This document shows, piece after piece, positions 24,569 to 51,605 of a DNA stretch of 64,000 nt. The position numbers were made by a program, and so were the translations under genes. The stretch lies in contig JAWHQI010000065.1 in the NCBI GenBank assembly GCA_033032865.1, positions 1,116,001 to 1,180,000 of the forward strand, given 5' to 3'. The stretch is from Dactylorhiza incarnata (Eukaryota > Streptophyta > Magnoliopsida > Asparagales > Orchidaceae). The notes below the pieces were generated by a model. It had not been told where the DNA came from. It ran no database searches and saw only the letters and a list, made by a program, of their open reading frames with translations. Every line of letters begins with the position of its first letter. The first letter of the stretch is position 1.

Positions 24569-24573
24569 GTTCC

Positions 24574-30285: not shown

Positions 30286-30520
30286 ATTCCGACATCTAGA
30301 TGTCGGAATCCGACAACAAAATGAAGTCAGCATGACGACGGGTATGTTCCGCACGATTTGCACGAAGAATAGTTATATCCACTGTCAGAATTCTGACATC
30401 GATGTCGTCGACGACAGCTCCACGACCATCAAATCTCGTAGAAACGCCGCATTCATGGGACACGTGGCAGCCGGAGAAGATAACGCCGGCGGATGACATC
30501 TAGATATCGGATTCCGACAG
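30286..30520 (+). repeat. Palindromic words upstream of SireN TATA box
   Basis: The perfect palindrome ATTCCGACATCTAGATGTCGG (first 20 bases shown as arms ATTCCGACATC/GATGTCGGAAT) lies at about 30287-30310. GTCAGAATTCTGAC, then CATCGATG and GTCGTCGACGAC, lie near 30383-30418. A decayed copy is near 30493-30520. Confidence 0.8.
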
Positions 30521-30527
30521 CGAAAAA

Positions 30528-30535
30528 TATAAATT
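30528..30535 (+). promoter_or_regulatory. TATA box of SireN 5' LTR
   Basis: TATAAATT directly follows the last palindromic word. The 3' LTR counterpart is 37140-37147. The 3' LTR also holds a perfect TGACGTCA (36934-36941), a classic bZIP-type site, which is TGAAGTCA in the 5' LTR (30322). Confidence 0.6.
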
Positions 30536-30787
30536 GGTTAGTTTTTCTATGGAGAACAGTTTTTCCATCATCTGGAGTACCAATACCCGAGTGCATTCCG
30601 TCCAGAGAGCTCCAGAACTCCGAGAACTCCCATTTTGGCAAGAACGTTGAAGAGCAAAGAAGAGACGGTCTGTGCGCAGTATCTTAGGCAATCTTTGCAA
30701 GGATTCGACGCCGTCTTCATAGCTTCATATTTAGGGAGTTTCATATCTGAATTTCTATTTTGTATTTTATCTTATCATTTTGTAATC

Positions 30788-30990
30788 GGAGGAGGAAATC
30801 GTCGCCTTGTGCGTGGCTTCTAAGTCCGTGTGTGGCTTAGGGGAAATCGCCGCCTTCCGCGTGGCGTCTAGGTCCTTGTGTGGCTTAGGAGGAAACCGCC
30901 GCCTTGCGCGTGGCATCTAGGTCCTTGTGTGGCATAGGAGTAAATCTCTGCCTTGTGTGCATCGTCTAGATCATGGAGAGATCTAGGGGG
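30788..30990 (+). repeat. Tandem repeat of about 50-55 bp in SireN LTR, four copies
   Basis: Units open with GGAGGAAATCG, GGGGAAATCG, GGAGGAAACCG or GGAGTAAATC and share GCCTTG(C/T)GCGTGGC and 'tctaggtccttgtgtgg'. The 3' LTR carries the same at about 37398-37600. Confidence 0.85.
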
Positions 30991-31320
30991 AGGCTAGTAG
31001 TAAGATCTAGGAAGAGATACGATATAGCCGTCCGGTCCTTGGTTGAAGGACCGGTAAATTAAAAAGAAGTTTATTTTTATCATTGCCTTGATCTTAAGCT
31101 TTTTTAAGATCAATAGTTCTTTGTATTCATCACTTGTGAAAATAAAATTTGATTTCCAATTACCTCATGATTTTCTAAGTGATTATTTTGGTTGTGTAAA
31201 AATCTATTTGTTTATCATTGCAAAATAGTCTTAATATTTTTGAAAATTTTCAAAGTAAATATTAGCCCTTATTCACCCCCCCCCCCCCCCCACTCTAAGG
31301 GAGCCGCAAGATCCAACACT

Positions 31321-31332
31321 TGGTATCAGAGC
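31321..31332 (+). other. SireN primer-binding site
   Basis: TGGTATCAGAGC, a perfect copia initiator tRNA-Met PBS, 2 nt after the LTR end. Confidence 0.93.
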
Positions 31333-31368
31333 GTAGGTTATTTCAATACGTCTTCACAACTGGGAATA

Positions 31369-32658
31369 ATGGCGCTTCATGATCTCGCATCTTCTAGAGG
31401 GGATAAGTTTTATGAAAATGAAAAATCATTATCACCACCTATATTTATGGGTGAAAATTATAATGTGTGGAAAACTCTTATGGAAAAATTTCTTAAATCT
31501 TTGGATATTGAAGTTTGGAATATTACAATTAAAATGCCCCCAATTATTCTAAATAAAAATGAAATATTTTTAAATGCCAAATCTATGAATAGTCTATATT
31601 GTGCACTACATCAAAATATTTTCAAACTTATTTATACGCTTCCTACTGCTTTTGAAGTTTGAAAATTTCTTGAGAATTCTTATAGTCTTACCTCCACAGA
31701 TGATGAACAAGAGCAACTTCTTATGGATCCAAGAGAAGAATCCGATGAGGACTCATGCTTGGAGGAAGATCTATCTAAGAGAGAAGAATTCAACGTCACA
31801 ATATTGGACTCAAATGATGGCAACACATCAAGCAAAAGAGAAGACAGAAATTCAACTATGGAAGAGGAATGTCAAGAAGATGTCAAAGGAACCTTTGGTT
31901 CAAATCTTGCCTCATCTCATAGCAAGGTAAGAAAATCAAAATCTTCTCTTTTTGTAACAAGTTCCATTTCTACTTTTTGCATACGTGAAATTGCTAAACG
32001 TAAAATTTTAAAGTTGAAAATTGCTAATTCCAAATTACGTTTAGAAAATAAAACTTTAAAAGAAAATGTTAAAGTAGAATCAAGTATTGATGTGTTAAAT
32101 TCTCTTTCATGCTCTTTAGTTGAAATTCCTACTCCTTGTTTTGATTTTAATGATCTTAAAGAAAAATTCAAGGATTTTGAAAAAGTGCTTTTAATTTCAA
32201 AAGAACACAATGAAAAAGTGATAATTGAAAATAATGTTCTATCTTATAAACTAGAATCTCTAAAATCACATGTGCAAAAAATTTCAAATGATTTTTAAAA
32301 TCTTTTTTCTAGTTTATCCTCAAAATTGTATAAAGCGTCTACTAGTGTTTCAAACTTTATAAATCATGAACCAAGTAGAATATTTATTTCTAATCCTCAT
32401 TTAGCATCTCCCAACAAAGACTTAAATGTTCTCAAATTTCCTATAAGTAATACTTCTGAAAATAATTATGGAAATTTGAAGTATAAGAATATTAAACCAA
32501 AGTATGAATGGAGGCCCAAAATTAAAGATAAAACATTAACCTTATTTGAAAGAACCCATTCATCACTATCTCCCCAAAAGCCAACACGATGTATTTGGGT
32601 ACCCAAAGGAACCATCGCACTTGGTCCCCTTTGGATACCTAAATCTCTCATTCACTAG
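31369..32658 (+). pseudogene. gag: SireN gag, internally shortened, two stops
   Basis: A single frame of 430 codons from ATG 31369. The N-terminus is a copia Gag UBN2-like start (PIFMGENYNVWKTLMEKFL). It then jumps, after TGA at 31660, to an acidic linker (DPREESDEDSCLEEDL). A long Lys/Glu coiled-coil-like region follows (about 31980-32290: KIANSKLRLENKTLKENV). TAA interrupts at 32296, and a C-terminus with YEWRPKIK and CIWVPKG comes next. The zinc knuckles and most of the capsid domain are absent. The frame ends soon after the WVPK motif that marks the gag/pol boundary in the other elements. Confidence 0.8.
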
Positions 32659-35600
32659 GAATCATTGTATTGCATGAAGTAGGAATAAATTAAAAATGAA
32701 ATATCATTACTCTACTTCATGATATGCTTAATTGTTTTTTCTTTTGTTTATTTTTTATTTTTGAGCCAACACACTATGATCACTTTATATATCATGAGAT
32801 ATGACTTTCATTTTAAGCCTAATGTTTAACAAATCAAATTGAATTAAATTGAACATAAAGTCATAATTTTTTGTAAAGTGATCTATCTTTTCTTTTTCTA
32901 TGTTTTATCCTTGTAAAATCCATTGCCAATAAATGTCTTATATTATCATTATAAATTGAATGCTAAATTTGCTAAATGATATTATGAAGACTAATTAAAT
33001 TACTTTCAAAATTGGATTTAAATGGACTTTTAGGGGTCTTAGGCTAAAATATTAAATATACAACTTATTGCATAATTGTCTATTTTCTTTGTTGCATATG
33101 ATAGCCCCTATAATGAAAAATTATAATTGAAAAATTACAAAAATGATGAATATGATTTCACACACTCCACCTTGATCTATTAATATCCTATGCTAAAATT
33201 CATTATTATCATATATCATAATTCATTATCTATCAAGAATTATCATGAATCAACTATTTCTATCAACCTTAGGATTTATGAAATATATGATGGCGATTGG
33301 TATTATAGTTTCATATCTTGTTTAGTGTGTGTGATGTGCATCTCTATTGTTTGCATGAATCTCATCATATTTAGACTTTAAAATTAACTTGACATTAACA
33401 AGATGAAATCAAATAGAATTGCCTCTTCATTCTAGGTCTATAAATTTTCAAAACTCTATAATTGATTATAGGCAAACCAATTATATATATTTAACATATT
33501 TTGCATAACATCCAAATTCATTATCCTAGCTGCATCTCTTGGTATATTCTCAATTTAGTGTCTATGCTAGGATTATCAATATAGTGACATGCTAAAGGTA
33601 GAGAAATTTGAACTTTAAAATTCATGAGTACAATGTGGTTTCAAAATCCACTATATGTTCTAAAACTAAAACAAACTCATGTTTTATGAATCGATCCTTA
33701 GACTAAAACGCTTAGTATATCCATAATCATTAACTCATGACTTGTGTCTCACAATAGAGAGGGCGTAGGATTGTGTGCATTAGAGACCTAACCTCTAAGT
33801 CATGTCTTGTCCTTAACCGGGGAGGGTTACAGTAAGGCCTTGCGAGGCACTGGGGGAAAGAGTGCTAGGTTGAGTGTCGTCTTTTGTATGCATATGGGAT
33901 TAACACCCCAACCTACGACATGCATGCATCTCCTCATGCCCATCTGTCACTTAGTACGGGGCTAGAGTGTAGTCATGTAGTTAAGGTATCTTGATCTTAG
34001 ATATGCTTATATTATATTCATTGCATGAACTTTATCTCACTCTTTATACTTAAATCATGCATATTTATTTTTGTTCTAACATTGCATCTTGTGTTTGCAT
34101 ATTTTATTATTTTGAGCTTTAATGATTTTACAAAACACAAGTATTTGAAAACTCACCAAAAACATGTTAAAAGAGCCTTCAAATCTAATCAATATACTCT
34201 GAAACTTCAACTGAAGGAAGGTATCTTTATAATACAAATGAATTGTGAAAAATGTTTTTCAAAATATCAAAATTTGTAGTTTTGTCTCGGCGTTAAGGAG
34301 CTAACGCCTGGCGTTAGCTCCTTTGCTCCAATTTTTTTTGAATAATTTCTGGTATTGTTTTAATGTTGTGTGTTTTTATTTCTCTGTTTGTAAAGGGTTT
34401 TCTATCTTTTTATTTCCATTAAAACAAAATTTTATTTCTTTTCAATTTTTTTTTTGTATTTTCTCATGCATTATTTTGGGATTATTTCTCTGGCATAGAA
34501 TATCATCTACTGATAGGGCTAAAAAAACTTCTATGTTTTCCTGAAAATATTTAAATTTGAATATTTAAAAACAAATACAAAATTACAAAACAATTTCAAA
34601 GAATAAACATATGTTTTTCTCTTTATGCGTGACTATTGTTTTGTACTTATATAAAAATTAAAAAAATATTTAGAAATTGATTGTTATTCATTGCCATTGT
34701 CAAAGATGATTAATTATATCAATTAAAGATTAAATACAATGTTTAATTTAACTCTCAAGTTTCTTAAAAAACTTTGTTTTGTATTTGTCATGCCTTGAAA
34801 ATTATCTTGTTATGTGCAATGAATTGATTGTAGACAAACATGCGTAGAAACGCTTAGCATGCCTCTAAGTATGAGTAATGTATTATGTTTGATAATGATT
34901 CATTCACTCACTTATTTTTTTATAAATTACATGTGTTTACAATCTTATTCTTACATGATTGTATAATGTAATAACATAAGTAATTAAAATGCTTAAATAG
35001 ATTACATACACAACATTGAATTGGTTATTACAATTCTTTGTCTTTCGTGCACTTATTCTTAAGAGAAATGTAGTTGAAAATGCTATGTTTGCAAAACAAG
35101 TGAATTCAGAGTCCTTAGTCACTAAACTAAAAAACAAACAATAAATGACAAGGAAAACTCCACCAAGCACTACTCACCCTCCTGATAAGTCTTAGTGAGC
35201 ATTGTGAGGTTGGGCACTTTGGATAAGAATTGTAAAGTGTCTTGTAACAAACAATTTATACACCACTTCTCTTAGTACACCAGGATCACAAAAAATGAAA
35301 ATAAAGCTAAACAGTATAAAAGTGATCCTCAAGCACTACTTTGCACCCTGATAAGTCTTAATAAGCATTGTGTGTGCATAGCACCTTGGTAGTTGTACTA
35401 TTTATTCATGTGCATTGAAATATTATGGAAGTAATAGTATTTGTGTATTTTAATGTTGTGTTAATTCATTATATATGTTATGTGTTTTTGATTGATTCAC
35501 CTGTATACTTTATCAAAACACTATTTTGTACACATTATTATCTTTCATAAAACTTCTACTCCTGAGAATTGGATCCTAATGCGCATATACACTATTCTCT

Positions 35601-36119
35601 ACAAACTTAAGTAAATGCACTAGATAACAAAGCATGACCGCTACAATGTTTATGTTTACTTAAAATGCAAATTTTATTATATTGTAGTTTATGTATCTTT
35701 TCTTGATAGTATAAAATCATGCTTGCAATTTTATCTTAATGGAATAGCATCTCTTGAATCTATAACTCAAACATCAACTTTTCAAATTTAAAACTCATTA
35801 TCCATTATATGATTTTATCTTCTAAAATGATGTTTATGTTTAAGAGTGCTTATTATATTCTTCTGCTAAGTTTATCATTTATGCTCATTCATGTCTATTA
35901 TTCTTAACACCGTGCTATTCTTTTCAACAAGTGGTATCTTAAAATAGAATGCTTACTTTATCATGTCAGTCATGTTGCTTACTACTATATGTTCCATCAT
36001 GCTTATATTTTTCTTAACAAGTAGTATTTAACAAGCTTTTGATTGCAACCTATTTTTCTTCTCGACATAGAACATATTACTTCTTATTGCACACTCTCAC
36101 CTAAACCTTCTTTTGATAC
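32659..36119 (+). other. SireN non-coding interior
   Basis: About 3.5 kb of AT-rich sequence with no pol homology in any frame. It contains a perfect hairpin at 34296-34324 (GGAGCTAACGCC / GGCGTTAGCTCC). A diverged direct repeat sits around 35165-35220 and 35330-35390 (AAGCACTACT...CCCTGATAAGTCTTA). Small ORFs here look random. Confidence 0.7.
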
Positions 36120-36574
36120 TACCAAAAGGGGAGAATAAATTACATAAATCTAATCTTTAGGGGGAATACATTATAATGATTTCAAACTCAAAGAAAGTAT
36201 TTATGTAGGGGGAGTAATCATATAGGAGGTGCATACACTATCATATGCTCGATCATGACAATCCTTCAATAAGTGGTTCCTCATCAATCTTAGTAGATAT
36301 ACACTCATCCCTACCCACTTTTTCTAATAACAAAGGGGGAGAAGAAATTGAGAAATCTAGTCAAGTAGATATTTAGGGGGAGTAAATTATAAGAGAACAC
36401 TTATGTAGGGGGAGGACTTCATATAGAAAGAGTATGCATTATTGCTTTCAAATCTATCACGTTTTTAACCTGTTATCCATGCATATCTTATTAACGCACT
36501 TATCTATAAACACAAATTGTCTTAAAGTCACTAATTTCTCAAATAGGTATTTGTTATTATCAAAAGGGTGAGAT
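36120..36574 (+). other. SireN multiple polypurine tracts
   Basis: Successive tracts are AAAAGGGGAGAAT (36124), TTAGGGGGAATAC (36157), GTAGGGGGAGTAA (36206), AAAGGGGGAGAAG (36333), TTAGGGGGAGTAA (36374) and GTAGGGGGAGGAC (36407). The terminal tract CAAAAGGGTGAGAT (36561-36574) abuts the 3' LTR. Repeated PPTs are a feature reported for Sireviruses. Confidence 0.85.
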
Positions 36575-37917
36575 TGATGGAGCCTATGTTCCGCATCTCT
36601 TGGTTTGAGAATAACAAATACCGTATTGTATTTGATCTTGTATTTTGTGTGTTTATAGTGTCCAGGTTGTTCAGGTTGAATGAGGAGACAAGTCCTCGTT
36701 CATGGCCGGGCATGATCCAAGAGTGTGTACACTTTAGAAAAAGCAAAAGGATGAGTTTTGTGTGTTGATCTTAAAATGACCATAACTTTCAATCCAGGAA
36801 GAGTTACGGAACGGTCCACACCATTTCGGAGATGAGAACGACTCCATCTACAGTATGGAGGAGTTTCGGACGACAAAAATGAAGAGGAGCTATCGGATTC
36901 CGACATCTAGATGTCGGAATCCGACAACGAAAATGACGTCAGCATGACGTTGGGTATGTTCCGCACGATTTGCACGAAGAACAGTTATATCCACTGTCAG
37001 AATTCCGACATCGATGTCATCGACGACAGCTCCACGACCGTCAAATCTCGCAGAAGCATCGCATTTATGGGACAAGTGGCAGCCAGAGAAGATAACGCTG
37101 GAGGACGACATGTAGATATCAGATTCCGACAACGAAAAATATAAATTGGTTCGTTTTTCTATGGAGAACAGTTTTTCCATCATCTGAAGTACCTATACCC
37201 GAGTGCATTCCGTCCAGAGAGATCCAGAACTCTGAGAACTCCCATTTTGGCAAGAACATTCAAGAGCGAAGAAGAGACGGTCCGTGCGCAGTATCTCAGG
37301 CAATCTTTGCAAGGATTCGACGCCGTCTTCAGAGCTTCATATTTAGGGTGTTTCATATCTGAATTTCTATTTTGTATTTTATCTTATCATTTTTAATCGG
37401 AGGAGGAAATCGCCGCTTTGTGCGTGGCGTCTAAGTCCGTGTGTGGATTAGGGGAAATCGACGCCTTGCGCGTGGCGTCTAGGTCCTTGTGTGTCTTAGG
37501 AGGAAACCGCCGCCTTGCGCGTGGCGTCTAGGTCCTTGTATGGTTTATGAGTACATCTTTGCCTTGTGTGCAACGTCTAGATCATGGAGAGATCTAGGGG
37601 GAGGCTAGTAGTAAAATCTAGGAAGAGATACACTATAGTCGGTCGGTCCTTGGTTGAAGGACCGGTAAATTAAAAAGAAGTTTATTTTTATCATAGCCTT
37701 GATCTTAAGCTTTATTAAGATCAATAGTTCTTTGTATTCATCACTTGTGAAAATAAAATTTGATTTCCAATTTCCTCATGATTTTCTAAGTGATTATTTT
37801 GGTTGTGTAAAAATCTACTTGTTTATCATTGCAAAATTATCTTAATATTTTTGAAAATTTTCAAAGTAAATATTAGCCCTTATTCACCCCCCTCTAAGGG
37901 CGCTGCAAGATCCAACA
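36575..37917 (+). repeat. SireN 3' LTR (1343 bp)
   Basis: It starts TGATGGAGCCTATG and ends GATCCAACA, and matches 29969-31318 with numerous substitutions. The U5 C run is short here (TATTCACCCCCCTCTAAGG), unlike the expanded run in the 5' LTR. GAGTA follows. Confidence 0.93.
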
Positions 37918-38587: not shown

Positions 38588-38825
38588 TAAATTCTAACGA
38601 CTGTGTTTTTTTAGAAGATGATTCATCTTAACTTAGGATTGTGCTCGAAGCAACGTCGAAAAGAAGTGGATTCAGCGTGCCAAAATATGTCAAAGTAGCT
38701 TCTAGAAGCAAAGTCTGCGCGCGCTTTGAAAAGTCGACGTGGCATCGAGTGGAAATCAACGTGGCTTCAAATGAAAGCAACAACTATTGTGTCGAAGCAT
38801 GCATCGATATGAATTTGACGTTGCG
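38588..38825 (-). repeat. SireE pol-to-ORF3 spacer with CGTCGA-type words, right of array F junction
   Basis: It contains GTCGACGTGGCATCGAG, CATGCATCGATATG and TTTGACGTTGCG. The words resemble those of the SireE LTR (63228-63600) and continue at 42324-42420 once array F is set aside. Non-coding. Confidence 0.6.
38821..38825 (+). other. Target-site duplication TTGCG, left copy of array F
   Basis: TTGCG precedes the TGTAACGG terminus. An identical TTGCG follows the ACCGTTACA terminus at 42324-42328. Confidence 0.9.
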
Positions 38826-39063
38826 TGTAACGGTACTGGCCAGGACCGTCAACACATGACCTACAAGCCCAGTACCGCCGGCACCGACGGCCCAGGACCG
38901 TCAACAGACCTACTGGCACCGCCGGTTAAGCCTCACCCGAACGGGTTAACCACAAGCCTGCAGGCTGTGCACCCCAACCCCTCTCTGGCCCACCACAGGG
39001 CCCAGCGGGTTGTTGGAGACATACAGTCTCCCTTCGGTGAGAAGTGAGCCAGTTAAGCGGCGC

Positions 39064-39150
39064 CACGTGGACTTCCCAGGAGGTCACCCATCCCGTGACT
39101 ACTCCAGCCCGAGCACGCTTAACTACAGAATACTTTCACTTCTCATCACC
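39064..39150 (-). ncRNA. 5S rRNA-derived segment, minus sense (further copies 39732-39818, 40425-40512, 41123-41209, 41460-41546, 41967-42053)
   Basis: These are inverse partners of the plus-sense copies, each about 87 bp with the same box A and box C cores. Paired copies across one centre share private changes, e.g. 40425-40512 with 40533-40620. The copy at 41123 carries GAGCTGGGTGACC in place of GGATGGGTGACC. Confidence 0.85.
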
Positions 39151-39169
39151 AACTGAGCTGCACTCAGTT

Positions 39170-39256
39170 GGTGATGAGAAGTGAAAGTATTCCGTAGTTA
39201 AGCGTGCTCGGGCTGGAGTAGTCACGGGATGGGTGACCTCCTGGGAAGTCCACGTG
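39170..39256 (+). ncRNA. 5S rRNA-derived segment, plus sense (further copies 39839-39925, 40533-40620, 41567-41653)
   Basis: It contains AGTTAAGCGTGCTCGGGC, equivalent to the 5S box A region, and GATGGGTGACCTCCTGGGAA, equivalent to box C. The spacing is like that in plant 5S genes. The first part of 5S (upstream of about CCGTAGTTAAG) is replaced by unrelated sequence, so this is not a functional 5S gene. The internal RNA polymerase III control region could still work. The copy at 40533 has CTACTGGG and GCGCGC changes. Confidence 0.85.
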
Positions 39257-42200
39257 TCGCCGCTTAACTGGCTCACTTCTCACCGAAGGGAGACTGTATG
39301 TCTCCAACAACCCGCTGGGCCCTGTGGTGGGCCAGAGAGGGGTTGGGGTGCACGACCTGCAGGCTTGTGGTTAACCCGTTCGGGTGAGGCTTAACCGGCG
39401 GTGCCAGTAGGTCTGTTGATGGTCCTGGGCCGTCGGTGCCGGCGGTACTGGGCTGGTAGGTCATGTGTTGACGGTCCTGGCCAGTACCGTTACAAAAAGT
39501 GTACTGGCCAGGACCGTCAACACATGACCTACAAGCCCAGTACCGCCGGCACCGACGGCCCAGGACCATCAACAGACCTACTGGCACCGCCGGTTAAGCC
39601 TCACCCGAACGGGTTAACAACAAGCCTGCAGGCTGTGCACCCCAACCCCTCTCTGGCCCACCACAAGGCCCAGCGGGTTGTTGGAGACATACAGTCTCCC
39701 TTCGATGAGAAGTGAGCCAGTTAAGCGGCGACACGTGGACTTCCCACGAGGTCACCCATCACGTGACTACTCCAGCCCGAGCACGCTTAACTACGGAATA
39801 CTTTCACTTCTCATCACCAACTGAGCTGCAGCTCAGTTGGTGATGAGAAGTGAAAGTATTCCGTAGTTAAGCGTGCTCGGGCTGGAGTAGTCACGTGATG
39901 GGTGACCTCGTGGGAAGTCCACGTGTCGCCGCTTAACTGGCTCACTTCTCATCGAAGGGAGACTGTATGTCTCCAACAACCCGCTGGGCCTTGTGGTGGG
40001 CCAGAGAGGGGTTGGGGTGCACGGCCTGCAGGCTTGTTGTTAACCCGTTCGGGTGAGGCTTAACCGGCGGTGCCAGTAGGTCTGTTGATGGTCCTGGGCC
40101 GTCGGTGCCGGCGGTACTGGGCTTGTAGGTCATGTGTTGACGGTCCTGGCCAGTACCGTTACAAAAAGTGCACTTTTTGTAACGGTACTGGCCAGGACCG
40201 TCAACACATGACCTACAAGCCCAGTACCGCCGGCACCGACGGCCCAGGACCGTCAACAGACCTACTGGCGCCGCCGGTTCAGCCTCACCCCGAAGGGTTA
40301 ACCACAAGCCTGCAGGCCGTACACCCCAACCCCTCTCTGGCCTGCCACAGGGCACAGCGGGTTGTTGGGGGGGGGCACGAACCCACGCCCTCCCTTTGAT
40401 GAGAATTGAGCCAGTTAAGCGGCAGCGCGCGGACTTCCCAGGAGGTCACCCATCCCGTGAATACTCCAGCCCGAGCACGCTTAACTACGGAGTTCTTTCG
40501 ATTCTCATCACCAACTGAGCTGCAGCTCAGTTGGTGATGAGAATCGAAAGAACTCCGTAGTTAAGCGTGCTCGGGCTGGAGTATTCACGGGATGGGTGAC
40601 CTACTGGGAAGTCCGCGCGCTGCCGCTTAACTGGCTCAATTCTCATCAAAGGGAGGGCGTGGGTTCGTGCCCCCCCCCCCCAACAACCCGCTGTGCCCTG
40701 TGGCAGGCCAGAGAGGGGTTGGGGTGTACGGCATGCAGGCTTGTGGTTAACCCGTTTGGGCGAGGCTGAACCGGCGGTGCCAGTAGGTCTGTTGACGGTC
40801 CTGGGCCGTCGGTGCCGGCGGTACTGGGCTTGTAGGTCATGTGTTGACGGTCCTGGCCAGTACTGTTACAAAAAGTGCACTTTTTGTAACAGTACTGGCC
40901 AGGACCGTCAACACATGACCTACAAGCCCAGTACCGCCGGCACCGACGGCCCAGGACCGTCAACAGACCTACTGGCACCGCCGGTTCAGCCTCGCCCAAA
41001 CGGGTTAACCACAAGCCTGCAGGCCGTACACCCCAACCCTTCTCTGGCCCACCACAGGGCCCAGCGGGTTGTTGGAGACATACAGTCTCCCTTCGGTGAG
41101 AAGTGAGCCAGTTAAGCGGCGGCACGTGGACTTCCCAGGAGGTCACCCAGCTCGTGACTACTCCATCCCGAGCACGCTTAACTACAGAATACTTTCACTT
41201 CTCATCACCAACTGAGCTTTTTGTAACGGTACTGGCCAGGACCGTCAACACATGACCTACAAGCCCAGTACCGCCGGCACCGACGGCCCAGGAACGTCAA
41301 CAGACCTACTGGCACCGCCGGTTCAGCCTCACCCCGAAGGGTTAACCACAAGCCTGCAGGCCGTGCACCCCAACCCCTCTCTGGCCCACCACAGGGCCCA
41401 GCGGGTTGTTGGAGACATACAGTCTCCCTTCGGTGAGAAGTGAGCCAATTAAGCGGAGGCACGTGGACTTCCCAAGAGGTCACCCATCCCGTGATTACTC
41501 CAGCCCGAGCACGCTTAACTACGGAATACTTTCACTTCTCATCACCAACTGAGCTGCAGCTCAGTTGGTGATGAGAAGTGAAAGTATTCCGTAGTTAAGC
41601 GTGCTCGGGCTGGAGTAGTCACGGGATGGGTGACCTCCTGGGAAGTCCACGTGCCGCCGCTTAACTGGCTCACTTCTCACAGAAGGGAGACTGTATGTCT
41701 CCAACAACCCGCTGGGCCCTGTGGTGGGCCAGAGAGGGGTTGGGGTGCACGGCCTGCAGGCTTGTGGTAAACCCTTCGGGGTGAGGCCAGGACCGTCAAC
41801 ACATGACCTACAAGCCCAGTACCGCCGGTTCAGCCTCACCCCGAAGGGTTAACCACAAGCCTGCAGGTCGTGCACCCCAACCCCTCTCTGGCCCACCACA
41901 GGGCCCAGCGGGTTGTTGGAGACATACAGTCTCCCTTCGGTGAGAAGTGAGCCAGTTAAGCGGCGGCACGTGGACTTCCCAGGAGGTCACCCATCCCGTG
42001 ACTACTCCAGCCCGAGCACGCTTAACTACGGAATACTTTCACTTCTCATCACCAACTGAGCTGCAGCTCGGTGGAAGTCCACGTGCCGCCGCTTAACTGG
42101 CTCACTTCTCACCGAAGGGAGACTGTATGTCTCCAACAACCCGCTGGGCCCTGTGGTGGGCCAGAGAGGGGTTGGGGTGCACGGCCTGCAGGCTCATGGT

Positions 42201-42323
42201 TAACCATTCGGGGTGAGGCTGAACCGGCGGTGCCAGTAGGTCTGTTGACGGTCCTGGGACGTCGGTGCCGGCGGTACTGGGCTTGTAGGTCATGTGTTGA
42301 CGGTCCTGGCCAGTACCGTTACA

Positions 42324-42519
42324 TTGCGTCGAGTGCTATTCGAATGAACTATCCCAGTCAGCTCTCGAAGCTAGCGTCGACTAGAAGTTGACGATGCGTT
42401 GAGTTGTATTCGACGCAGCTCTGAATGAACATTTATATTTTTCTCAAAAAATTTACTATTTTTCCCAGCAATATCTTTATATGGAAATAGGTTTTATTAC
42501 ATAATAGATGTGACCTAAA
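42324..42519 (-). repeat. SireE pol-to-ORF3 spacer, left of array F
   Basis: It holds GCGTCGAGTGCTATTCGA, AGCGTCGACTAG and TTGTATTCGACGCAGC (42326-42420), the same word type as the SireE LTR. Then AT-rich DNA runs up to the pol stop TAG at 42515-42517 (minus strand). Confidence 0.65.
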
Positions 42520-42524
42520 GAGTT
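42520..42524 (+). other. Target-site duplication GAGTT, left copy of SireC
   Basis: GAGTT lies left of the 3' LTR. The same bases are at 55578-55582, right of the 5' LTR. Confidence 0.9.
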
Positions 42525-43660
42525 TGATAGTTTATATAGGTGTAGTCAATAATACCTAGAGGGGGGGGGGTGAATAGGTTTTACTTATTTTCTTTGTTTA
42601 AACCTAATGTTTCTATCTGCAGAAAACACAAGCACAGAAAACACACAAGGATGTATAGGGGTTCCTCAAGACAGGGTGTCTTGAGTAGTCCTCTTTCCCC
42701 CTTCACCTTTCTAACAATGAGTTAGACAAGGCCACAAACTCCAATCTCGACTCCTTGAGCTTACACCACAAGTTCCTCAGAACTTCTCAGATCCAGAGTG
42801 ATCCTACCTCAGGCACAGCAGCCCTACACTCAGGCTCAGCAGCCCTACACCTCAGGCTCAGCAGCCCTACAGCTCAGTCTCAACAGCCCTACACCTCAGG
42901 CTCAACAGCCCTACACCTCAGGCACAACAGCCCTACACCTCAGAGTTATGAACTCATACCACTCAGAAATCCCACAGATTTCCTACCTCAGACCTATCAA
43001 GAAGTCCTACCACTCAAGCTGTCAACACAGCTTTACACACAGGCTCAACAGCCTTTTACTCAGGAAATGCCTTACAAAGATGTAATAGAGTTTGAGGTAG
43101 ATACAAAAGACAAAAGGTTTACTCTTTGGTCTTCTGAATCTTTTCTTCATATCTGAAAACAGCTGCTTTAGATTTGTATCACCTTGATCTTCTCCTTCAG
43201 CAAAGCAGAAGATCAACTTGCCCTTCTTGAGTTTGTACAGGAAGAGCTAACTAATCTCCTTAGAAGATTAACTTCAGCTACAGAGAATAACTTTAACTGG
43301 CTGAATCGTGAATGCTCGATTGCGGCGTGTCTCAGCAGTTGGGCTGAGACAGCTTCCAGTCTCAGCGGCAGCCCCAGTCACCTTCTCAGCGGTTGCTCCA
43401 GTCTCCTTCTCAGTGGATCCGCTGAGATGGCTCCTCGTCTCAGCGGTTCTGATCCTTCGTCTCAGCGGTTATGCTGAGACAGATCTTCATCTCCTTGTAG
43501 ATGATTTCTTCTTATCTAAGGCCATGTTTGGCCCTTCCTTTTGAGTCACATGTGCTTGTATATCCTACACAAGTATAGCTTTATTAAATACAATATGTCC
43601 TTAGCATTAAGAGTGGTGCCTCTTCAAATCAAGGTAATATTGAGGACAATATACCCAACA
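42525..43660 (-). repeat. SireC 3' LTR (1136 bp, internally deleted)
   Basis: On the minus strand it reads TGTTGGGTATATTG...ATAAACTATCA. Compared with the 5' LTR it lacks the segment equivalent to about 55036-55240, the join lying near 43330. The loss removes the TATA box and part of the CTCAGCGG word array. It includes a 22-bp minisatellite and the U5 motif with a G run at about 42562-42572. Confidence 0.92.
42815..42955 (-). repeat. 22-bp minisatellite in SireC LTR, six copies
   Basis: CCCTAC recurs at 42822, 42843, 42865, 42887, 42909 and 42931 in the unit CCCTACACCTCAGGCTCA(G/A)C. The 5' LTR holds the matching array at about 54525-54650. The Gln/Pro/Tyr-repeat ORFs read through it are not genes. 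Confidence 0.9.
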
Positions 43661-43674
43661 ATCTCCCCCTATTT
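43661..43674 (-). other. SireC polypurine tract
   Basis: Minus strand AAATAGGGGGAGAT, identical to the SireA PPT. Confidence 0.92.
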
Positions 43675-44211
43675 GAAGAAGGCAGAACATCCCCAATGCT
43701 AAGGTCCATTAACAATAAAAATCTTATCATAGAAACCTATGAACTGTGAAGCATAGGACCTAACAACCTAGGCATTTGCATTTGCACTGGCCCTTTCTCC
43801 CCTTTCTCCAGCATTGGTACTGGCCCTATCTCCCCCTTTCTGGCTTTTTCAACCTTAACTTGCTATGGATAGAGGGACAATAGCTGTAGATCCCTTTGGA
43901 TCAATCTATAGGCTAACCTGTACACTCTTAGCATTTGCCAACTTCCCCTCAACCTGAGTAGGGAATTTACTCCCCCTTAGTTGGAGAGCTATTTTCTGTA
44001 ATAGCTGATCCATTACAATCTGAACATTCCATTTAAGCTATTGAATACTAGAGATAATAAATACAGAGTACATATATCAATAGTAACAAACACAATCTTA
44101 TGATCAGAATATGAAATATCATTTCACTTAAAATGTTCAGTACAGATATATAAAAGAAAATTCAACTTATAGTTGTACATTCAATCCAAAAAAAAGTCAA
44201 GACTGGTTTTT
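43675..44211 (-). other. SireC 3' untranslated stretch with further PPT-like tracts
   Basis: The minus strand shows AACTAAGGGGGAGTAAA (near 43975), AGAAAGGGGGAGATAGGG (near 43830) and GGAGAAAGGGGAGAAAGG (near 43800) before the terminal PPT. Otherwise AT-rich and non-coding. Confidence 0.7.
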
Positions 44212-45764
44212 CTAAGATTGACCCTGAGAGGAACTTTCTCCAATTGTAGACTTTCTTTTCCTAGTTTCAGCAGCAGCCTTGATCTGCTCCTTTACTTTGA
44301 AGTACAGAAGTGGCTTGGGAAGATATCTTGGGGGAATCCTTAAAGGAGTTTCCCTTCTTACCATATTTTCTTTGAGAATTCTTTCCCTTAAAGACTCCCT
44401 TTCAAGGTGTTTGATCCACTCAGCAGCTGAATAGACATGGTCAATGTCCTTCATTGGATTTCCATGGCTCACCCAGGTATTGACAACAATTGTATCCAAC
44501 TCCAGATTGTCATCTTCATGGAGTGGATCCTCTAATCTTTCCATTCTCTTCTGTGCCATGTATTCTTCAGCAGTTTGAATACCCTCTACCCTTCTCCTCT
44601 TTGTTGCTCTCTCATCAGTAATCAGATTTGATTGACTTTGGAAGTCAAAGTCTTCATTTCTGCTAGGGTTCAAGATTGGCAGATTCAAAGCAATTCTTGT
44701 TCCTTGCAGCACTTTTAAGCTTGAGTCCCATTGAGTATCAGTGACCTTTCTGACCATGGTGAGGATATTTTCTTGAATAGCACTGGAGACATTGTTGACC
44801 ACTTCCACCATTTTCTTGCTGGCTTCTTCTTGATTGGAGAGTATCAGTTTGTGAGAGGACTCCATGTTGTTGTACAGTTGTATGTGAGCTCCTTTCAGCT
44901 TAGCATGTAGATGGAGTATCTTCTCCTCCCCTTCTTTGCTATGTTCCACTATTTTCTTCTCAATTTCAGAGTGTTGATCCAATATGGATTGAGAGAGAGT
45001 CTAAAAGGTGCTGTCCACATCATCCAAAATGCATTCCTTTGCCTTGTCAATGTGGGACTTGACTTGGCTGCTTGATGTGTTGACCACTTGTGCCATTCTG
45101 GCAACAGCTTTTTCCCAGACATTCTCATTTTTGTAGAGGTGATTCTTTACATATGTGATGTCCTTTGTGGAATCCCCTTGATGGTCTGCAATATCCTTCA
45201 GAACTGTGTGCTGGGCAGCAACAGTATTTTTGGCCATTTCAAACCATCTTGTCATCTGCAGAAGGATATGATCTGATGCAGTTTTGACATCATTAACTTG
45301 GGCATTTAGTTCAGTTCTCACTTCAGCCACTCTTGACTCCATTCTTTGCTCACTGGCTTGGATCTCCTGAGTCAATGCAGCTCTTGTTGTATGTAATTCA
45401 TTCCTTATCTGGGTAGATACATCATGAACCTTTTCAGCAACAATCTCTTTCATAGACAACATCTGACCCTCAATCATTGTTTGTATTGAGTTTATCAGGT
45501 CAGATGTGTCCAGAACTGCAACTGGACTTTCCTGGGGTAATTCCTTTTCAACCATCTCTTCAGCTCCACTTTGAGCATTAGCCCTCCCATCATTAGGGAT
45601 CTGCTCCCCCTCAGATGGGGCATTAAGTGTACCTTATAGATTTGGAGGGATTGATTCCTGTTCATGTTCTCCCCCACTAGCATACCCACCTCCTCCTTCA
45701 TAGGCAGGGCTATGCTCCCCCTCACTTGGGGCATCCATAGGAGGAGAATTTTGTCTAAGGTCAC
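44212..45764 (-). pseudogene. SireC aORF, exon 2
   Basis: It continues exon 1 after a 77-nt intron. It opens with a Ser/Pro/Glu linker, then a long helical segment (about 44700-45520; e.g. MLSMKEIVAEKVHDVSTQIR, VAEVRTELNAQV), a basic patch ATKRRRVEG near 44600, and a C-terminal block SAAEWIKHLERESLRERIL...RYLPKPLLYF near 44300-44430. The C-terminal block corresponds to the SEWKLYQ...PKPYAYF block of SireA aORF. Two in-frame stops, TAA at 45634-45636 and TAG at 45001-45003, break it. No membrane span is seen. Function unknown. Confidence 0.7.
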
Positions 45765-45841
45765 CTGAAAAGTGATTGAGGAGTTAGACACCTAGACTAT
45801 ACTATTGATAGAAAAGAGTCCTAACTGAAATCCTAATTTAC
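45765..45841 (-). other. Candidate spliceosomal intron in SireC aORF, 77 nt
   Basis: Minus strand: CCCTG|GTAAATTAGG at the 5' end, CACTTTTCAG|GTGACC at the 3' end, with TCTAACTCC as a possible branch region. It is phase 1 (splits a Gly codon). The frame continues on the far side for over 40 codons before a stop, while unspliced reading stops inside the intron. Length is typical of short plant introns. Confidence 0.6.
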
Positions 45842-46817
45842 CAGGGATAGGTGAATTGGGAAATTCATCTTCAGCTTGATGAACAGCTGGATCAGCATTC
45901 ATCTGGGTTGGCTCAGGATTGGGCACAACACTTCCTTGTGGCTCCTCATTTGTCCTGGGGACCTCTTCATTGTCAATGTTCATTGGGTTGCTGCCAGATC
46001 TATGATCAGACCCATGACTATCTTCATTTTCAGACCCATTTGACTTTGAGGATGAGTCTGATTTGTGCTGAGATGAATCTTTCTTCTTTTCCTTTGCCAC
46101 AGATGGTTGGCTCATAGGGAGCACTCTGGAGAATCTATCCAGAGTCTTAATGTCCATTCTTTTGAGATAATGGAGATTTGACCCCTTGGAGTTTGCAAAG
46201 GTCTCTGAATAACTATTCTGTAGGTACAGAGATAGTATTCTTCCCATATTGGGGGCTTGTAGGGATTCCTTTATCCTTTGAAAAATAACTTCTCCCCATG
46301 AGGTTCTCTTAGACAGAATTATCCTTGTCATTAATTCAAACATGAATTGAGAGACAGTGTCATGTGATCCAGGCTTGCATAGGATAGCTTTGCCTACTAT
46401 GTCAGACAACAGCTTCCCCTGTTGATTGAAGAACTTCCTCCTTAGACAAATGGTCTTAGTATCACTGTATCCTGTCCACTTTAGGGCAGTCCTCTTATCC
46501 TTTTCTGATATTTCTTCCTCTTCAGTTTTACTGCAGGGAGTTAATTTCAGCCCCTTCTCCAACCTTTTAGCAGTAATCTTTATCTTCTCACTTCCTATCT
46601 TGGACTTCAGGATGGTTTTGGAAGGAGACAGTTTGACATGGTTGAACCATTCCAGAACTTCAGTTCTGAGAATGCAGCAGGGTTCAGACAGCATATGCTC
46701 CAGAACTTGAGCTTCCATTAGATGAATCACATGTCGTATTTCTTCTGAGGCATAAGAGAATCCATCTCTTACTATTTCATAGCCCTCCAGGAGATCTTTT
46801 GAGCTTTTTGGCGCCAT
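45842..46817 (-). CDS. SireC aORF, exon 1
   Basis: It starts at ATG 46817, 97 bp after a TATAAATAG box. Its 325 codons form the same N-terminal domain as SireA aORF: MAPKSSKDLLEGYEIVRDGF start, LSEPCCILRTEVLEWF, SEKIKITAKRLEKGLKL, then MFELMTRIILSKRTSWGEVIF and LHYLKRMDIKTLDRF. A Ser/Asp/Glu-rich low-complexity tail with repeated N/D/S follows (about 45870-46090). The domain is intact. I believe it belongs to the family annotated as putative plant transposon protein, which should be confirmed. No catalytic motif recognised. Confidence 0.75.
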
Positions 46818-46913
46818 GGAATCAGAAAGTCGAGGCGCTGAGACGGGAGAGAAGATGAATCGTCTCGACGGCTAAGGGTTTGGCTTTGTGGTGTGTTTTA
46901 GGTTACAGTGTAT

Positions 46914-46922
46914 CTATTTATA
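46914..46922 (-). promoter_or_regulatory. Candidate internal TATA box, proximal module, upstream of SireC aORF
   Basis: The minus strand reads CCTATAAATAGATAC, 97 bp before the aORF ATG. It lies about 105 bp downstream of the CTCAGCGG words at 47025-47110. Context resembles the second box at 47409. Confidence 0.5.
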
Positions 46923-47024
46923 GGATTTTAGTTTCGTTTTTATTAACCCTAGGCTTTTAGACTTAATTACCTTGTTGTGTTAAGGAGTTTTAGGTTAGTT
47001 AACAAATTTCATACTGATCATACC

Positions 47025-47115
47025 CCGTCTCAGCGGTTCAGCTGAGACAGAGACCTATGCCGCTGGGACAGTGAACTGTCAACCGCTGGGACAGTTTGCT
47101 CATCTCAGCGGTGTT
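47025..47115 (-). repeat. CTCAGCGG / CCGCTGAGA words upstream of SireC aORF
   Basis: Words GTCTCAGCGGTTCAGCTGAGAC, CCGCTGGGACAG (twice) and CATCTCAGCGG lie within 90 bp. They are the same word family as the LTR array at 55207-55399. Confidence 0.85.
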
Positions 47116-47408
47116 GAAACCGATTTCTCGGTCTCGAGTGGAGCTCGGGGCCCTCACCGAGATGAGGGGCAGCTAGCCCTTACCGGTCCCTCGGGAGAGG
47201 TAAGGTTGACGACTCGAGCAAAGAACGAAGACCCTAGTCTCAGCGAGGAGGTCCCTCCACTAACCCGGAAGATCGTTGAGCGCTTCCCCTCCCAAGCCAA
47301 AGCTAAGACTCGGGCACCTTGGAGAGCTAGAGAGCCCAAACCAAAGCGACCTAGGGAGAGAAGAGCTCAGATAATGAACCGCCTCTCTTCCAAGGTGCCC
47401 TTTGAGGT
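47116..47408 (-). other. GC-rich spacer between the two promoter-like modules of SireC
   Basis: About 290 bp, clearly GC-richer than its surroundings, with CTCGAG, CTCGGG and CCCTCGGGAG words and an isolated TCTCAGCG. Small ORFs on both strands show no homology. Possibly the leader of the distal module. Confidence 0.45.
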
Positions 47409-47417
47409 CTATTTATA
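47409..47417 (-). promoter_or_regulatory. Candidate internal TATA box, distal module of SireC
   Basis: The minus strand reads TCTATAAATAGACC, followed by AAAATCTATA context similar to the box at 46914. It lies downstream of the CTCGCGAG word array (47580-48070). Confidence 0.45.
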
Positions 47418-47579
47418 GATTTTAGTTTTGTGGTCTGTCAATAACCAAATCCCGCTGTCCATTCTCACTATCCGCACACCGGATTGGTCTGCTAACAGCC
47501 AAACTCCGCTGTTTGAGGAAGCTAACCGCAGACCACCAGGGGCCTCTTGGTAAAAATCCCTTCCCGGACTTTTACTGGG

Positions 47580-48070
47580 CGAACCGGCCTGCCCCGAGGC
47601 CTTCCTCGCGAGAGGAGCTCGCAAGCCTCTGGGTCAGTGAGCCCCCGAATTACTATCGCTACATTGCCTGGCTCGCTCGCCCGCACCACCTCGGCGCATC
47701 CCCAAAACGGCTAACTATACCCCAAGACGGCCTTCCTCGCGAGTGGAGCTCGCGAGCCTGCGCCACCTCGGCGAATCCCGGAATGGCTATCCGCACCCCA
47801 AAATGGCTAACTGTACCCCAAAATGGCCTTCCTCGCGAGTGGAGCTCGCGAGCCTGCGCCACCTCGGCGAATCCCAGAATGGCTATCCGCACCCCAAAAT
47901 GGCTAACTTTACCCCAAGACGGCCTTCCTCGCGAGTGGAGCTCGCGAGCCTGCGCCACCTCGGCGAATCCCAGAATGGCTATCCGCACCCCAAAATGGCT
48001 AACTGTACCCCAACATGGCCTTCCTCGCGAGTGGAGCTCGCGAGCCTGCGCCACCTCGGCGAGCTTCAAG
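47580..48070 (-). repeat. 96-bp tandem repeat with CTCGCGAG palindromes
   Basis: CCTTCCTCGCGAG starts units at 47731, 47827, 47923 and 48019, with a partial unit at about 47600. Each unit carries two CTCGCGAG palindromes and the phrase ATGGCTATCCGCACCCC. The period of 96 is a multiple of three, so repeats stay in frame and create long spurious ORFs on both strands (47513-48132 plus, 47659-48069 minus). The region is strongly GC-rich. Confidence 0.93.
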
Positions 48071-48438
48071 GAAGCTGGTTAACTCCCCTCCACTGGGCTC
48101 GCTCGCCTGCGCAGTCTCTTGCTCTTCCTTGACCTACCTCGCCGGAGATCAGGGTTCGCCCCTCTGGGCTCGCCTCCTTGAGCGCGAGTGGCGAACATCG
48201 GGGTTGTACAAGCGGTTCAGCTGGGATTTTTCTCAGCTGATTCAGCTGAACATACTCCTGCATTTTAGCTGATCATATGGTTTAGACCTAATGTAGATGT
48301 TTTGGCTTAAGATGGGTCCTAGTCATGTCACTAAGTTATAGTGTACAGTAATATAAAGTTTGATAATTTACCATTCATAATCAACAATAGTGATTACCTA
48401 ATCAACAATAGTGATAGCTATTACTCATGCATTTAGGA
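48071..48438 (-). other. SireC spacer just after pol
   Basis: Non-coding. It holds a short cluster of CAGCTGA words (48217-48275: CAGCTGGG, CAGCTGA, CAGCTGAAC, AGCTGATC), then AT-rich sequence with a duplicated 'aatcaacaatagtgat' (48380-48413). Confidence 0.6.
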
Positions 48439-51400
48439 CTATTCTATACTAAGCATGCCAAGATCAATTTTGAAATCATTGAATTTAGATTCATCCAGTG
48501 GCTTTGTAAATATATCAGCTACTTGTTTGTCAGTGGAGACATATTCAAGACAGATATATTTACTTTCTACATGTTCTCTAATAAAATGATATCTAATCTC
48601 TATATGCTTAGTCCTGCTATGAGAGACAGGATTTTTAGCAATAGAGATTGCACTGGATGAATCACAATACAAAGGAGATTCCCTTACCTTGAGGTTGTAA
48701 TCCTCCAACTGATGTTGTGTCCAAAGGAGTTGTGCACAACAGCTACCTGCAGCAATGTATTCAGACTCAGCTGTGGATATTGCCACACTGGTTTGTTTCT
48801 TGCTGCTCCAAGATATCAATTTTCTCCCTAGGAACTGACAAGTACCACTTGTACTCTTCCTGTCTTCTTTGCAACCTGCAAAATCTGCATCTGAAAAGCC
48901 TGTAAGTTCAAAGTCATTGTTCTTAGGGTACCACAGGCCAAGATGCAAGCTGCCCTTAAGGTATCTCAATATCCTCTTCACAGAGGTGTAGTGAGATTCC
49001 TTAGGACAGGCTTGATACCTAGCACAAATACATGTAGCATACATAATGTCTGGCCTACTAGCAGTCAAGTACAATAGGGATCCAATGATACATCTGTACA
49101 TGGACTCATCAAAGGCCTTTCCCTTTTCATCCTTGTCTAATGATACATTGGACCCCATGGGTGTTCTCATGGTGGAGGCTGATTCCATCCCAAATTTCTT
49201 GATGAGCTCCTTAGTATACTTGGTCTGGGAGATGAAAATTCCATCATCAGACTGTTTCACTTGGAGCCCAAGGAAATATTTGAGCTCACCCATACTGCTC
49301 ATTTCAAACTCCCCCTGCATTAGATTGGCAAATCTCTTGCAGAGGTTGTCATTAGTAGACCCAAAGATTATGTCATCAACATAGATTTGGACTAAGAGAC
49401 ACTTGCCCCTTGTTTCCCTAAGAAACAATGTGCTATCAATCTTTCCCCTCATGAACTTGTTTCTGAGGAGAAAGTTGGACAAAGTCTCATACCAAGCTCT
49501 TGGAGCTTGCTTGAGACCATATAGTGCTTTCCTAAGAAGATAAACATGAGAAGTTAGGGTTGGATGCACAAAACCTGAAGGTTGCTCAACATATACCTCT
49601 TCCTTCAAGTCTCCATTGAGAAAGACTGATTTGACATCAATCTGGTAGACTTTGAACCCCTTGTGGGCAGCATAGGCAAGGAATAGCCTAATTGCTTCCA
49701 ACCTTGCAACTGGTGCAAAGGTTTGATCAAAGTTTATACCTTCCTCTTGCCTGTATCCTTTGGCTACTAATCTGGCTTTGTTCTTGATGATTGTACCATT
49801 CTCATCCAGCTTGTTCCTGTATACCCATTTAGTGCCAATCACATTGTGTCCCTGAGGTCTTGGCACCAGCTTCCAAACTTTGCATCTCTTGAATTGTAGG
49901 AGCTCTTCTTGCATGGCTTCAATCCAGAAAGTGTCTTGATTGGCCTCTTCAAACTTCTTGGGCTCCATTTGAGAAAGGAAGCTCAAGAATAGTGCTTCAT
50001 TATGAGCTCTGCTTCTTATCAATATGTCTTGGGTATGATCTCCAATTATTAGATCTCTTGGATGATCTCTCAGGTGTTTTGCAGCAGCTGGAAGAGGGTC
50101 TTCTGGTGGCTATGGTTGTTCCACTGGTTCAGCTGTGACTTCACCATCTTGTACCTCTTCTTCTTCAGGAATTGCAGTAGCTGTTTGTGTTTTGCTGCAG
50201 TTGGGCTTGTCTTGGATAGTCAGCTCATGCAACCCTTCTTCATTTCCTATCAAAATAGAAGAGCTAGACCATTCTTTGTAGAGAAGGCTGGTCTCATCAA
50301 ACACAACATGCATAGATTCTTCTACAACATGGGTTTTCTTGTTGCAAATTCTATAAGCTCTACTATGTGAGCTATACCCAACAAGAACTCCCACATTGCA
50401 TTTTTCTGCAAACTTTGTTAATTGAGATTTTCCATTATTTAGAATGTAGCATTTGCAACCAAAGATTCTAAAGTAAGAAATTGTAGGTTGTTTGCCTTTC
50501 AGAATCTCATAAGGGGTTTTCCCAAGGACCTTATTGATGGAGGCTCTATTGAGAACATAACAGGTTGTATTGACTGCCTCAGCCCAGAAGTATTCTGGGA
50601 GTGAGGAGTCACTAAGCAATGTTCTCCCAGCTTCTATCAAGGTCCTATTCCTCCTCTCAGCCACACCATTTTGCTGTGGAGTCCTTGGGGAAGAGAACTC
50701 TTGGGTGATACCAAATTCTTGACAAAATTTTGTCATGGCTTCAGATTGAAATTCTGTGTCATGGTCAGTTCTTGTCCTGACCACAGTACATTGTAGATCA
50801 TTCTGAATAGCCTTGACATAATTTATAAGGACATGTAAGGTATCTGACTTCTTCTTAAGGAAGAATACCCATGTATACTTTGAGTGATCATCTACAATTA
50901 CCAAAGTATACAACTTCCCACCTAGGCTCTGAATTGGCAAAGGACCAAACAAGTCCATGTGCAATAGGTATAAACACCTTTCAGTATCCTTGGAGCCAAT
51001 ACATTTAAAGGTGGTCCTAGTTTGCTTACCCATTTGGCAAGCATGACAGGGACCACTTTTAACACATTTTAGATTAGGACTATTTCTAACAAGGTTTTTA
51101 GAAAATAATCTATACATTGTCTTATAGTTAATGTGGGCAAGTCTCTTGTGCCATTGGACACAGAGAGACTCACTTTCATTAGCTACAAGACACACAGAGG
51201 AGATAGAATAATTGCAAATGAATTCTAAGTAATAAACATTCCCACTCCTAGTGCCTGAGAGAATGGTCTCCAAGTCTTTAGAATTTTTGATCAAGCACTT
51301 GTCATTGTGGAATTCAATGACATAGCCTAAGTCACATAGTTGGCTTATGCTTACAAGGTTGTGTTGCAACCCTTCAACATAAGCTACCCTTGTAATTGAG

Positions 51401-51582: not shown

Positions 51583-51605
51583 CTGCAACACAAAATTTAA
51601 TGTAC
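51583..51605 (-). other. SireC gag/pol intron-like block, 23 nt
   Basis: Minus strand: CCTAAG, then GTACATTAA...GTGTTGCAG, then GTTAGT. Gag stops at TAA inside. Skipping the 23 nt joins gag to protease in frame. Length differs by one from SireA and SireB, so a single fixed frameshift cannot serve all three. Confidence 0.65.

Follow-up and report, generated by a model that had tools for sequence, protein, structure and literature searches.

A chain of inverted, Cassandra-like 5S units in Dactylorhiza incarnata recurs across the assembly and may represent a palindromic retroelement family

The window analysed here is a 64,000-nt stretch of Dactylorhiza incarnata DNA (assembly GCA_033032865.1, contig JAWHQI010000065.1, positions 1,116,001 to 1,180,000), and the element under study is a 3498-bp block at window positions 38826-42323, in which eleven units with a core resembling 5S ribosomal RNA (5S) stand mostly in alternating orientation. 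The structure of this block, the 5-bp duplication at its outer ends, the presence of dimers and chains of the same unit at many other loci, the derivation of head-to-head arms mostly from one template and the recurrence of the joint points are direct observations. On balance, and with a probability that we put at roughly 55%, the block is one member of a palindromic, non-autonomous retroelement family: reverse transcriptase would have made palindromic complementary DNA (cDNA) of a fragment of a long terminal repeat (LTR) like that of Cassandra, a terminal-repeat retrotransposon in miniature (TRIM), the cDNA would have been chained, and an integrase of the kind that acts on LTRs would have inserted the chain.

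Read in the 5S sense, a complete unit is about 340-355 bp long and runs from CAGCTCAGTTGG (head) through the 5S-like core to GTTACA followed by AAAAAGTG (tail). Across the block the orientations are -+-+-+--+-+. Alignment of the units confirmed the number and the alternation given in a preliminary description of this DNA, including the sole direct joint at 41217/41218; Tandem Repeats Finder reports a period of 337 over that region (40880-41555). The ends had to be corrected. Each unit had been described as starting with TGTAACGG and ending with CCGTTACA, and only the outer ends of the whole block do so; intact inner tails reach AAAAAGTG, and the heads reach CAGCTC.

The first unit, U1 (38826-39162, 5S sense on the minus strand, outer tail end at 38826), forms a dimer with U2 (39163-39500, plus strand), to which it is joined head to head by perfect arms 5 nt apart; the tail of U2 retains AAAAAGTG. 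U3 (39501-39828, minus), without its tail end, is the partner of U4 (39829-40170, plus), which is complete from CAGCTC to AAAAAGTG, and of 328 aligned bases one distinguishes the two. U5 (40171-40522, minus), of a C-rich subfamily, is paired with U6 (40523-40877, plus), with which it shares a C-rich insertion. U6 is a mosaic: its head part tracks U5 to about alignment column 207, and from column 214 it is identical to U7 (40878-41217, minus), its final 144 nt being those of that unit. U8 (41218-41556, minus) follows U7 at the direct joint, whose exact point is uncertain by 2-3 bases because CT is common to both sides. The remaining units are incomplete, as is U3: U9 (41557-41787, plus), head to head with U8, has its tail deleted; U10 (41787-42066, minus) lacks its tail end and has an internal deletion; U11 (42067-42323, plus) has lost the head and most of the 5S core and provides the outer tail end CCGTTACA. 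Similarity between the head-joined pairs of the window exceeds that of permuted pairs in both halves of the unit (p 0.003 and 0.002), and tail-joined pairs are closer than permuted ones in the tail half only (p 0.045; head half p 0.61), all four tests being uncorrected.

The 5S-like core was compared with the Cassandra box A and box C consensus given in the available text of PMC7215508. Box A, RGTTAAGYRHGY, is found in 10 of the 11 units and nowhere else in the window, and the strict box C, RRRATRGGTRACY, follows at the 18-nt spacing in seven of these ten. In U4, box A (39865-39876) is separated by an 18-nt spacer from a box C-like sequence (39895-39907; whole element 39865-39907, plus strand) with one mismatch to the strict consensus; the other nine box A copies lie at 39124, 39792, 40486, 41183, 41520 and 42027 on the minus strand and at 39196, 40559 and 41593 on the plus strand. 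Ten units with both boxes had been described: this stands for box A, and the strict box C reduces it to seven. A Cassandra-type core is borne out by the match to both boxes and by their spacing, which is a feature of Cassandra TRIMs. The Rfam 5S model scores the units at 24.5-31.2 bits, under its gathering score of 38. Box A at unit position 37 corresponds to about position 51 of that model (counted by hand in the Rfam alignment), and the transcription start predicted from 5S spacing lies about 13 nt beyond the unit head.

The pentanucleotide TTGCG borders the block on both sides (38821-38825 and 42324-42328), as had been stated. Among the combinations of the four TGTAAC[GA]G starts and four C[CT]GTTACA ends present in the window, only the outermost pair has a 5-bp flank match; a random 3498-bp interval has such a match in 322 of 200000 trials. 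When the two flanks are joined with a single TTGCG, the product matches a neighbouring copy at 42365-42413 in a gap-free 49-bp alignment that spans the join (77.6%, E 1.4e-4), as expected of an empty site.

We then considered the unit in the whole source assembly (3.27 Gb, 3184 contigs), which was searched with the U4 sequence (39829-40171). At least 183 matches were obtained in the best-scoring 40 of 1999 candidates. The loci examined are the window and 39 regions covering every listed cluster outside it, 40 in all, and, being drawn from the best-scoring candidates, are not a random sample. Unit matches lie side by side in opposite orientations in 37 of the 39 regions, the exceptions being L031, where a single unit stands next to another palindrome, and L048, which has two units in direct orientation. 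The idea of a one-off array was thus rejected, since the assembly holds many multi-palindromes of the unit. Monomers, dimers and multimers, for which the preliminary description proposed a search, are all present: a lone unit (L071), dimers such as L045 and L046, and chains at many loci. Not foreseen there was that the unit forms a family with subfamilies. In L015 and L031 the unit is chained to other palindromes whose termini are of this kind too. These palindromes with TGTAAC/GTTACA-type ends are located at L031:1662-1991 and L015:2678-3083, and another lies near the unit at L046:3891-4441. One array is present almost unchanged at three loci (L040, L041 and L042) spread over two contigs, which could reflect segmental duplication or redundant contigs. 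Of three scans of viral contigs, the first gave three loci (L001-L003), taken as chance matches, and the other two gave none.

By an automatic rule applied to the outermost ends, with margins fixed after start/end pairs had already been inspected, a perfect 5-bp duplication is present at 15 of the 40 loci, the window included; the same rule shifted in position gave one match in 480 (12 shifts at each of 40 loci). L046, where a lone 670-bp dimer has CCCCG on both sides, escaped the rule owing to another member of the family in that region; it is the 16th locus with a duplication. A diverged palindrome of 551 bp, also in L046, has ACAGC on both sides. The dimer of L045 is 673 bp long and is flanked by ATAAA. 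Arrays with a duplication range from 670 bp to 3498 bp and have termini of the TGTAAC/GTTACA type. Non-outermost pairs with 5-bp matches occur in L012, L020, L025 and L031 and were not counted; as shifted controls for all pairs gave 27 matches in 320, many of them at one shift, the outermost-only rule was adopted. Sixteen of the 40 loci thus show TG...CA ends with a 5-bp target duplication, a feature of Cassandra TRIMs, around the array as a whole, and the earlier proposal that the block was inserted as one piece with an LTR-integrase-like duplication is supported.

The basic piece of these arrays is the head-to-head dimer, with head arms mostly from one template. Arms were compared at 38 loci (L041 and L042 were left out), where 71 head-centre and 46 tail-centre matches were taken and those with fewer than 60 of 150 nt alignable were dropped (26 head, 12 tail). 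Arms with an identity of 93% or more over 120 or more of the 150 nt are found at 41 of 45 head centres and at 16 of 34 tail centres (Fisher p 2.5e-5); when the dropped matches are scored as misses, the figures are 41 of 71 versus 16 of 46. As tail arms are less often alike than head arms, tail joints often link different subfamilies. Among the listed matches of a head 30-mer with 131 exact occurrences in the assembly (100 of the 131 places), on contigs with several of them, 15 of 16 neighbouring pairs less than 60 bp apart are head to head.

Joints recur at the same bases. The head-head centre GAGCTGCAGCTC at 39823-39834 is repeated at 40517, 41551 and 42058, and the U1/U2 centre is one base short of it; over the loci, the most frequent spacer between inverted heads is CTGCAG (60 of 109). 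The tail-tail centre, in which AAAAAGTG meets CACTTTTT at 40163-40178, occurs again at 40870-40885, and at both places the complete centre reads AAAAAGTGCACTTTTT. Intact joints meet between TG and CA, and the irregular ones in the block are U7/U8 and U9/U10. The inner tail joints retain AAAAAGTG and CACTTTTT, which the outer ends lack; this coexistence of short outer ends and longer inner joints had been pointed out for the block and recurs at other loci. Since U2 has AAAAAGTG while U3 has lost its own end, these bases belong to the unit and are not mirror-made. In the 40 loci, CA are the next two bases after GTTACAAAAAGTG in 86 of 88 cases, and, counted over the whole assembly, the exact tail CCAGTAYYGTTACAAAAAGTG has C as its next base in 267 cases and G in a single one. 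This single case is L071, a diverged unit that stands alone and extends from CACTTTTT to GAGCTG; it shows no clear target duplication and no primer-binding site (PBS). Mixed-subfamily tail joints still meet at identical bases, and direct tail-to-head joints with a shared TGCA occur in L013, L032, L034 and L035. In L018 a unit head is joined to the LTR end of another LTR element, and the joint point is the PBS start in a relative of that LTR found in L046 (78.6% over 313 columns). Free unit heads in L018, L031 and L037 abut LTR-like ends (GGG(A)TCTTACA) near the expected PBS start.

The retroelement reading would account for these features as follows. The unit would be a discrete cDNA-like piece of a Cassandra-type LTR, reaching from near the start of transcription by RNA polymerase III (Pol III) at the head, CAGCTC, to just beyond the LTR end, so that the tail, GTTACA plus AAAAAGTG, would extend a little past a TG...CA-type terminus; a head near the predicted start and a tail just past the LTR terminus give the extent that a cDNA copied from an LTR transcript would have. 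At the head, reverse transcriptase would fold copying back on itself, producing a dimer whose arms are nearly identical and whose two ends are LTR-type termini. Such dimers and other cDNA ends would be joined end to end where TG meets CA, by template jumping or ligation, and this would explain the mixed tail joints and the direct joints, as well as units that stand singly and the head fused to the LTR/PBS boundary of another LTR element in L018. An integrase supplied by an autonomous LTR retrotransposon would finally trim the outermost tails to TGTAAC/GTTACA and insert the chain with a 5-bp duplication; TGTAAC would be the processed and CACTTTTTGTAAC the unprocessed terminus of the cDNA dimer. 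That Pol III, reverse transcriptase and integrase act in this way, and that the head is the 5′ end of an RNA, is what we infer. The first strand may have been primed by a transfer RNA (tRNA) on a parent element since lost, or by a transcript of the array through its self-complementary tail.

Cassandra itself has its PBS, TGGTATCAGAGC, downstream of box C (available text of PMC7215508). The combination of unit tail and PBS, CGTTACAAAAAGTGGTATCAGAGC, has zero exact matches in the 3.27-Gb assembly; with up to three mismatches, 6335 matches are obtained, with one single-mismatch case among the 100 listed, and the 20 loci returned for this pattern (L051-L070) show no unit similarity and no box A. 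No Met-tRNA PBS was therefore found downstream of the LTR end, in a test limited to the exact tail and to the PBS of this tRNA. A direct arrangement of LTR, PBS, internal domain and LTR, with a polypurine tract (PPT), was not recognised from the order and joints of the units in the 40 best-scoring loci, where no dedicated search for it was made. In its core and termini the unit thus resembles Cassandra, and on the tested feature it fails as plain Cassandra; the reading as a Cassandra with LTRs is not supported. We rejected an origin as strong-stop cDNA of a living Cassandra with a Met-tRNA PBS, which predicts the tail and PBS together: tRNA-primed strong-stop synthesis from a living parent is not shown, and only the looser cDNA reading is kept.

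The absence of the tail-PBS combination counts against the retroelement reading, and so do several other points. Under the rules used, twenty-four of the 40 loci have no clean outer-end duplication, and at several the array stops at a free head or at a free tail. Within the block, U9 has fewer differences from U10 (3 in 231) than from U8, its head partner (6 in 231). Trimming of 7-8 nt to yield the outer ends is long for integrase processing. Every RNA-level and cDNA-level step, moreover, is one that we infer.

The same lack of a Met-tRNA PBS after the exact tail would suit a distinctly less probable scheme, in which the arrays prime themselves. Pol III transcripts of an array would stop at a T run past a tail-tail centre, and the RNA end AAAAAGUGCACUUUUU, paired with its own RNA or with that of a partner, would prime the first strand; with the start about 13 nt inside the opposite arm, the cDNA 3′ end would carry a head hairpin able to prime the second strand. 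It is conceivable, at the same low level of confidence, that palindromes at both ends of the transcript would thus self-prime both strands and that only the LTR-type integrase would be borrowed. In that case the array of palindromes would itself serve as active master copy of a self-sustaining retroelement class without LTR pairs, PBS or tRNA primer, which we regard as a tentative proposal. The start predicted about 13 nt across the head centre fits, as do the preservation of the tail centre in joints between different subfamilies and outer ends that start with the first bases such an RNA primer would leave. Simple self-priming would not give tail joints between different templates, which are frequent, and a tail centre is lacking in lone dimers such as L046. 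Sense-strand T runs are not specially depleted either: of 124 units, 6 contain TTTT and 3 contain AAAA, and with no bias between them we rejected selection connected with Pol III termination.

Inverted termini, a duplication of fixed length (5 bp) and palindromic lone copies are also what one would see in a DNA transposon whose terminal inverted repeats are very long, had an element of the foldback or miniature inverted-repeat transposable element (MITE) type acquired 5S and been moved by a transposase making 5-bp duplications. Foldback elements and palindromic MITEs have long inverted termini and palindromic lone copies, and are DNA transposons that as a rule have other duplication lengths. 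The TG...CA ends, the 5S boxes with Cassandra spacing, the LTR/PBS fusion in L018 and the mosaic chains favour reverse transcription and make such a transposon unlikely. Growth in place, which we judge a shade less likely again, would start from a single inserted Cassandra-like LTR or dimer, amplified by replication template switching or unequal exchange with conversion between arms. The U6/U7 tract does resemble conversion around a palindrome centre, and yeast provides a documented case of inverted amplification through template switching at the fork (available text of PMC10766183). Such growth would not recruit foreign subfamilies, so that the mixed-subfamily tail joints at separate loci count against it, and the duplications found lie outside the whole chain. 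There remains the question of inverted read chimeras in the assembly. Palindromes are a known artefact of long reads; with units of this block diverging by up to about 10%, flanks that carry a duplication and a design that recurs in 37 of 39 regions, we consider an artefact very improbable.

Some further results concern the block and its surroundings. RNA-level covariation among the window units amounted to a single two-sided change and was not used; the best matches to microRNA families had sub-gathering scores, spanned palindrome centres and were dismissed as palindrome-driven; and a protein search with a spurious open reading frame (ORF) of the block gave no match at the chosen E-value. A Copia element on the minus strand (42524-55035), with gag, integrase and reverse transcriptase domains, starts about 200 bp to the right of the block; its terminal repeats (42524-43330 and 54229-55035) are 96.7% alike and its PBS is at 54216-54227. 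At 12697-24571 an LTR-like pair, 99.5% alike over 1555 bp, surrounds long ORFs and is read as a recent insertion; the one ORF tested for domains gave a weak Transposase_32 match. The element at 29969-37917 has LTRs 92.7% alike with a 49-bp tandem repeat within each, TGTTGG...CCAACA ends and GAGTA on both sides. Tandem arrays are located at 1326-2239 (155 bp period, 5.9 copies) and at 47695-48062 (96 bp, 3.8 copies, open in one frame as a repeated peptide). A protein search with a neighbouring retroelement ORF gave no match at the chosen E-value.

A 5S-derived short interspersed element (SINE) has a 5S head, an A-rich 3′ tail and one copy per insertion; this class was rejected for the block, whose family consists of inverted multimers with TG...CA ends. 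Cassandra is like the orchid units in its 5S boxes at 18-nt spacing within an LTR-like unit, its TG...CA termini, its non-coding nature and its formation of arrays; it differs in its direct LTRs, Met-tRNA PBS, PPT and internal domain, and in arrays that are direct, of the form (LTR-internal)n (available portions of PMC7215508 and PMC10853983), whereas the orchid units are mostly inverted, with no internal domain recognised and an exact tail that is never followed by a Met-tRNA PBS. In maize, one insertion of a tandemly arrayed TRIM (TA-TRIM) consists of two inverted TRIMs flanked by CTTCA, and amplification by polymerase chain reaction and sequencing are reported for TA-TRIM loci (available portion of PMC4717578). 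It resembles our case as a multi-unit TRIM in a single insertion with a 5-bp duplication, and differs, in the same portion of PMC4717578, as one inverted pair of the SMART family, whereas dimers of LTR fragments and palindromic chains occur here at many loci. TA-TRIMs are defined by at least three LTRs and two internal regions per insertion, and the block, though it holds several units in one insertion, falls outside this class, its units abutting without an internal region between them. Tandem TRIM arrays of bivalves are likewise long multi-unit loci, built of direct repeats of terminal direct repeat and internal region, and the available part of PMC6934838 describes no palindromic chains. 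Human immunodeficiency virus 1 (HIV-1) offers a likeness at the cDNA level, in minus-strand strong-stop DNA that primes itself from the cDNA end matching the RNA 5′ end; that product is an abortive by-product (available part of PMC4668388), whereas here such products would be integrated and numerous. A literature search, mostly of titles and the beginnings of abstracts and with the subscription literature largely outside its coverage, found no palindromic 5S family. To that extent the earlier remark that no element of this form had been described stands, and it has to be qualified by the inverted TRIM pair already published; direct Cassandra arrays (PMC7215508) and this one maize pair (PMC4717578) are, as far as the available texts go, the closest precedents.

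If the retroelement reading is correct, palindromic cDNA whose two ends share one terminus would be a workable substrate for LTR-type integration, and would have been used repeatedly in one genome, and by-products of reverse transcription could become a mobile family. The joints of the chains would record the sites of template jumps, so that a process known mostly from test tubes would become readable in a genome. The arrays also bring numerous opposed 5S promoters, together with inverted repeats that are nearly perfect, into the chromosome, where they would be a likely source of small RNAs.

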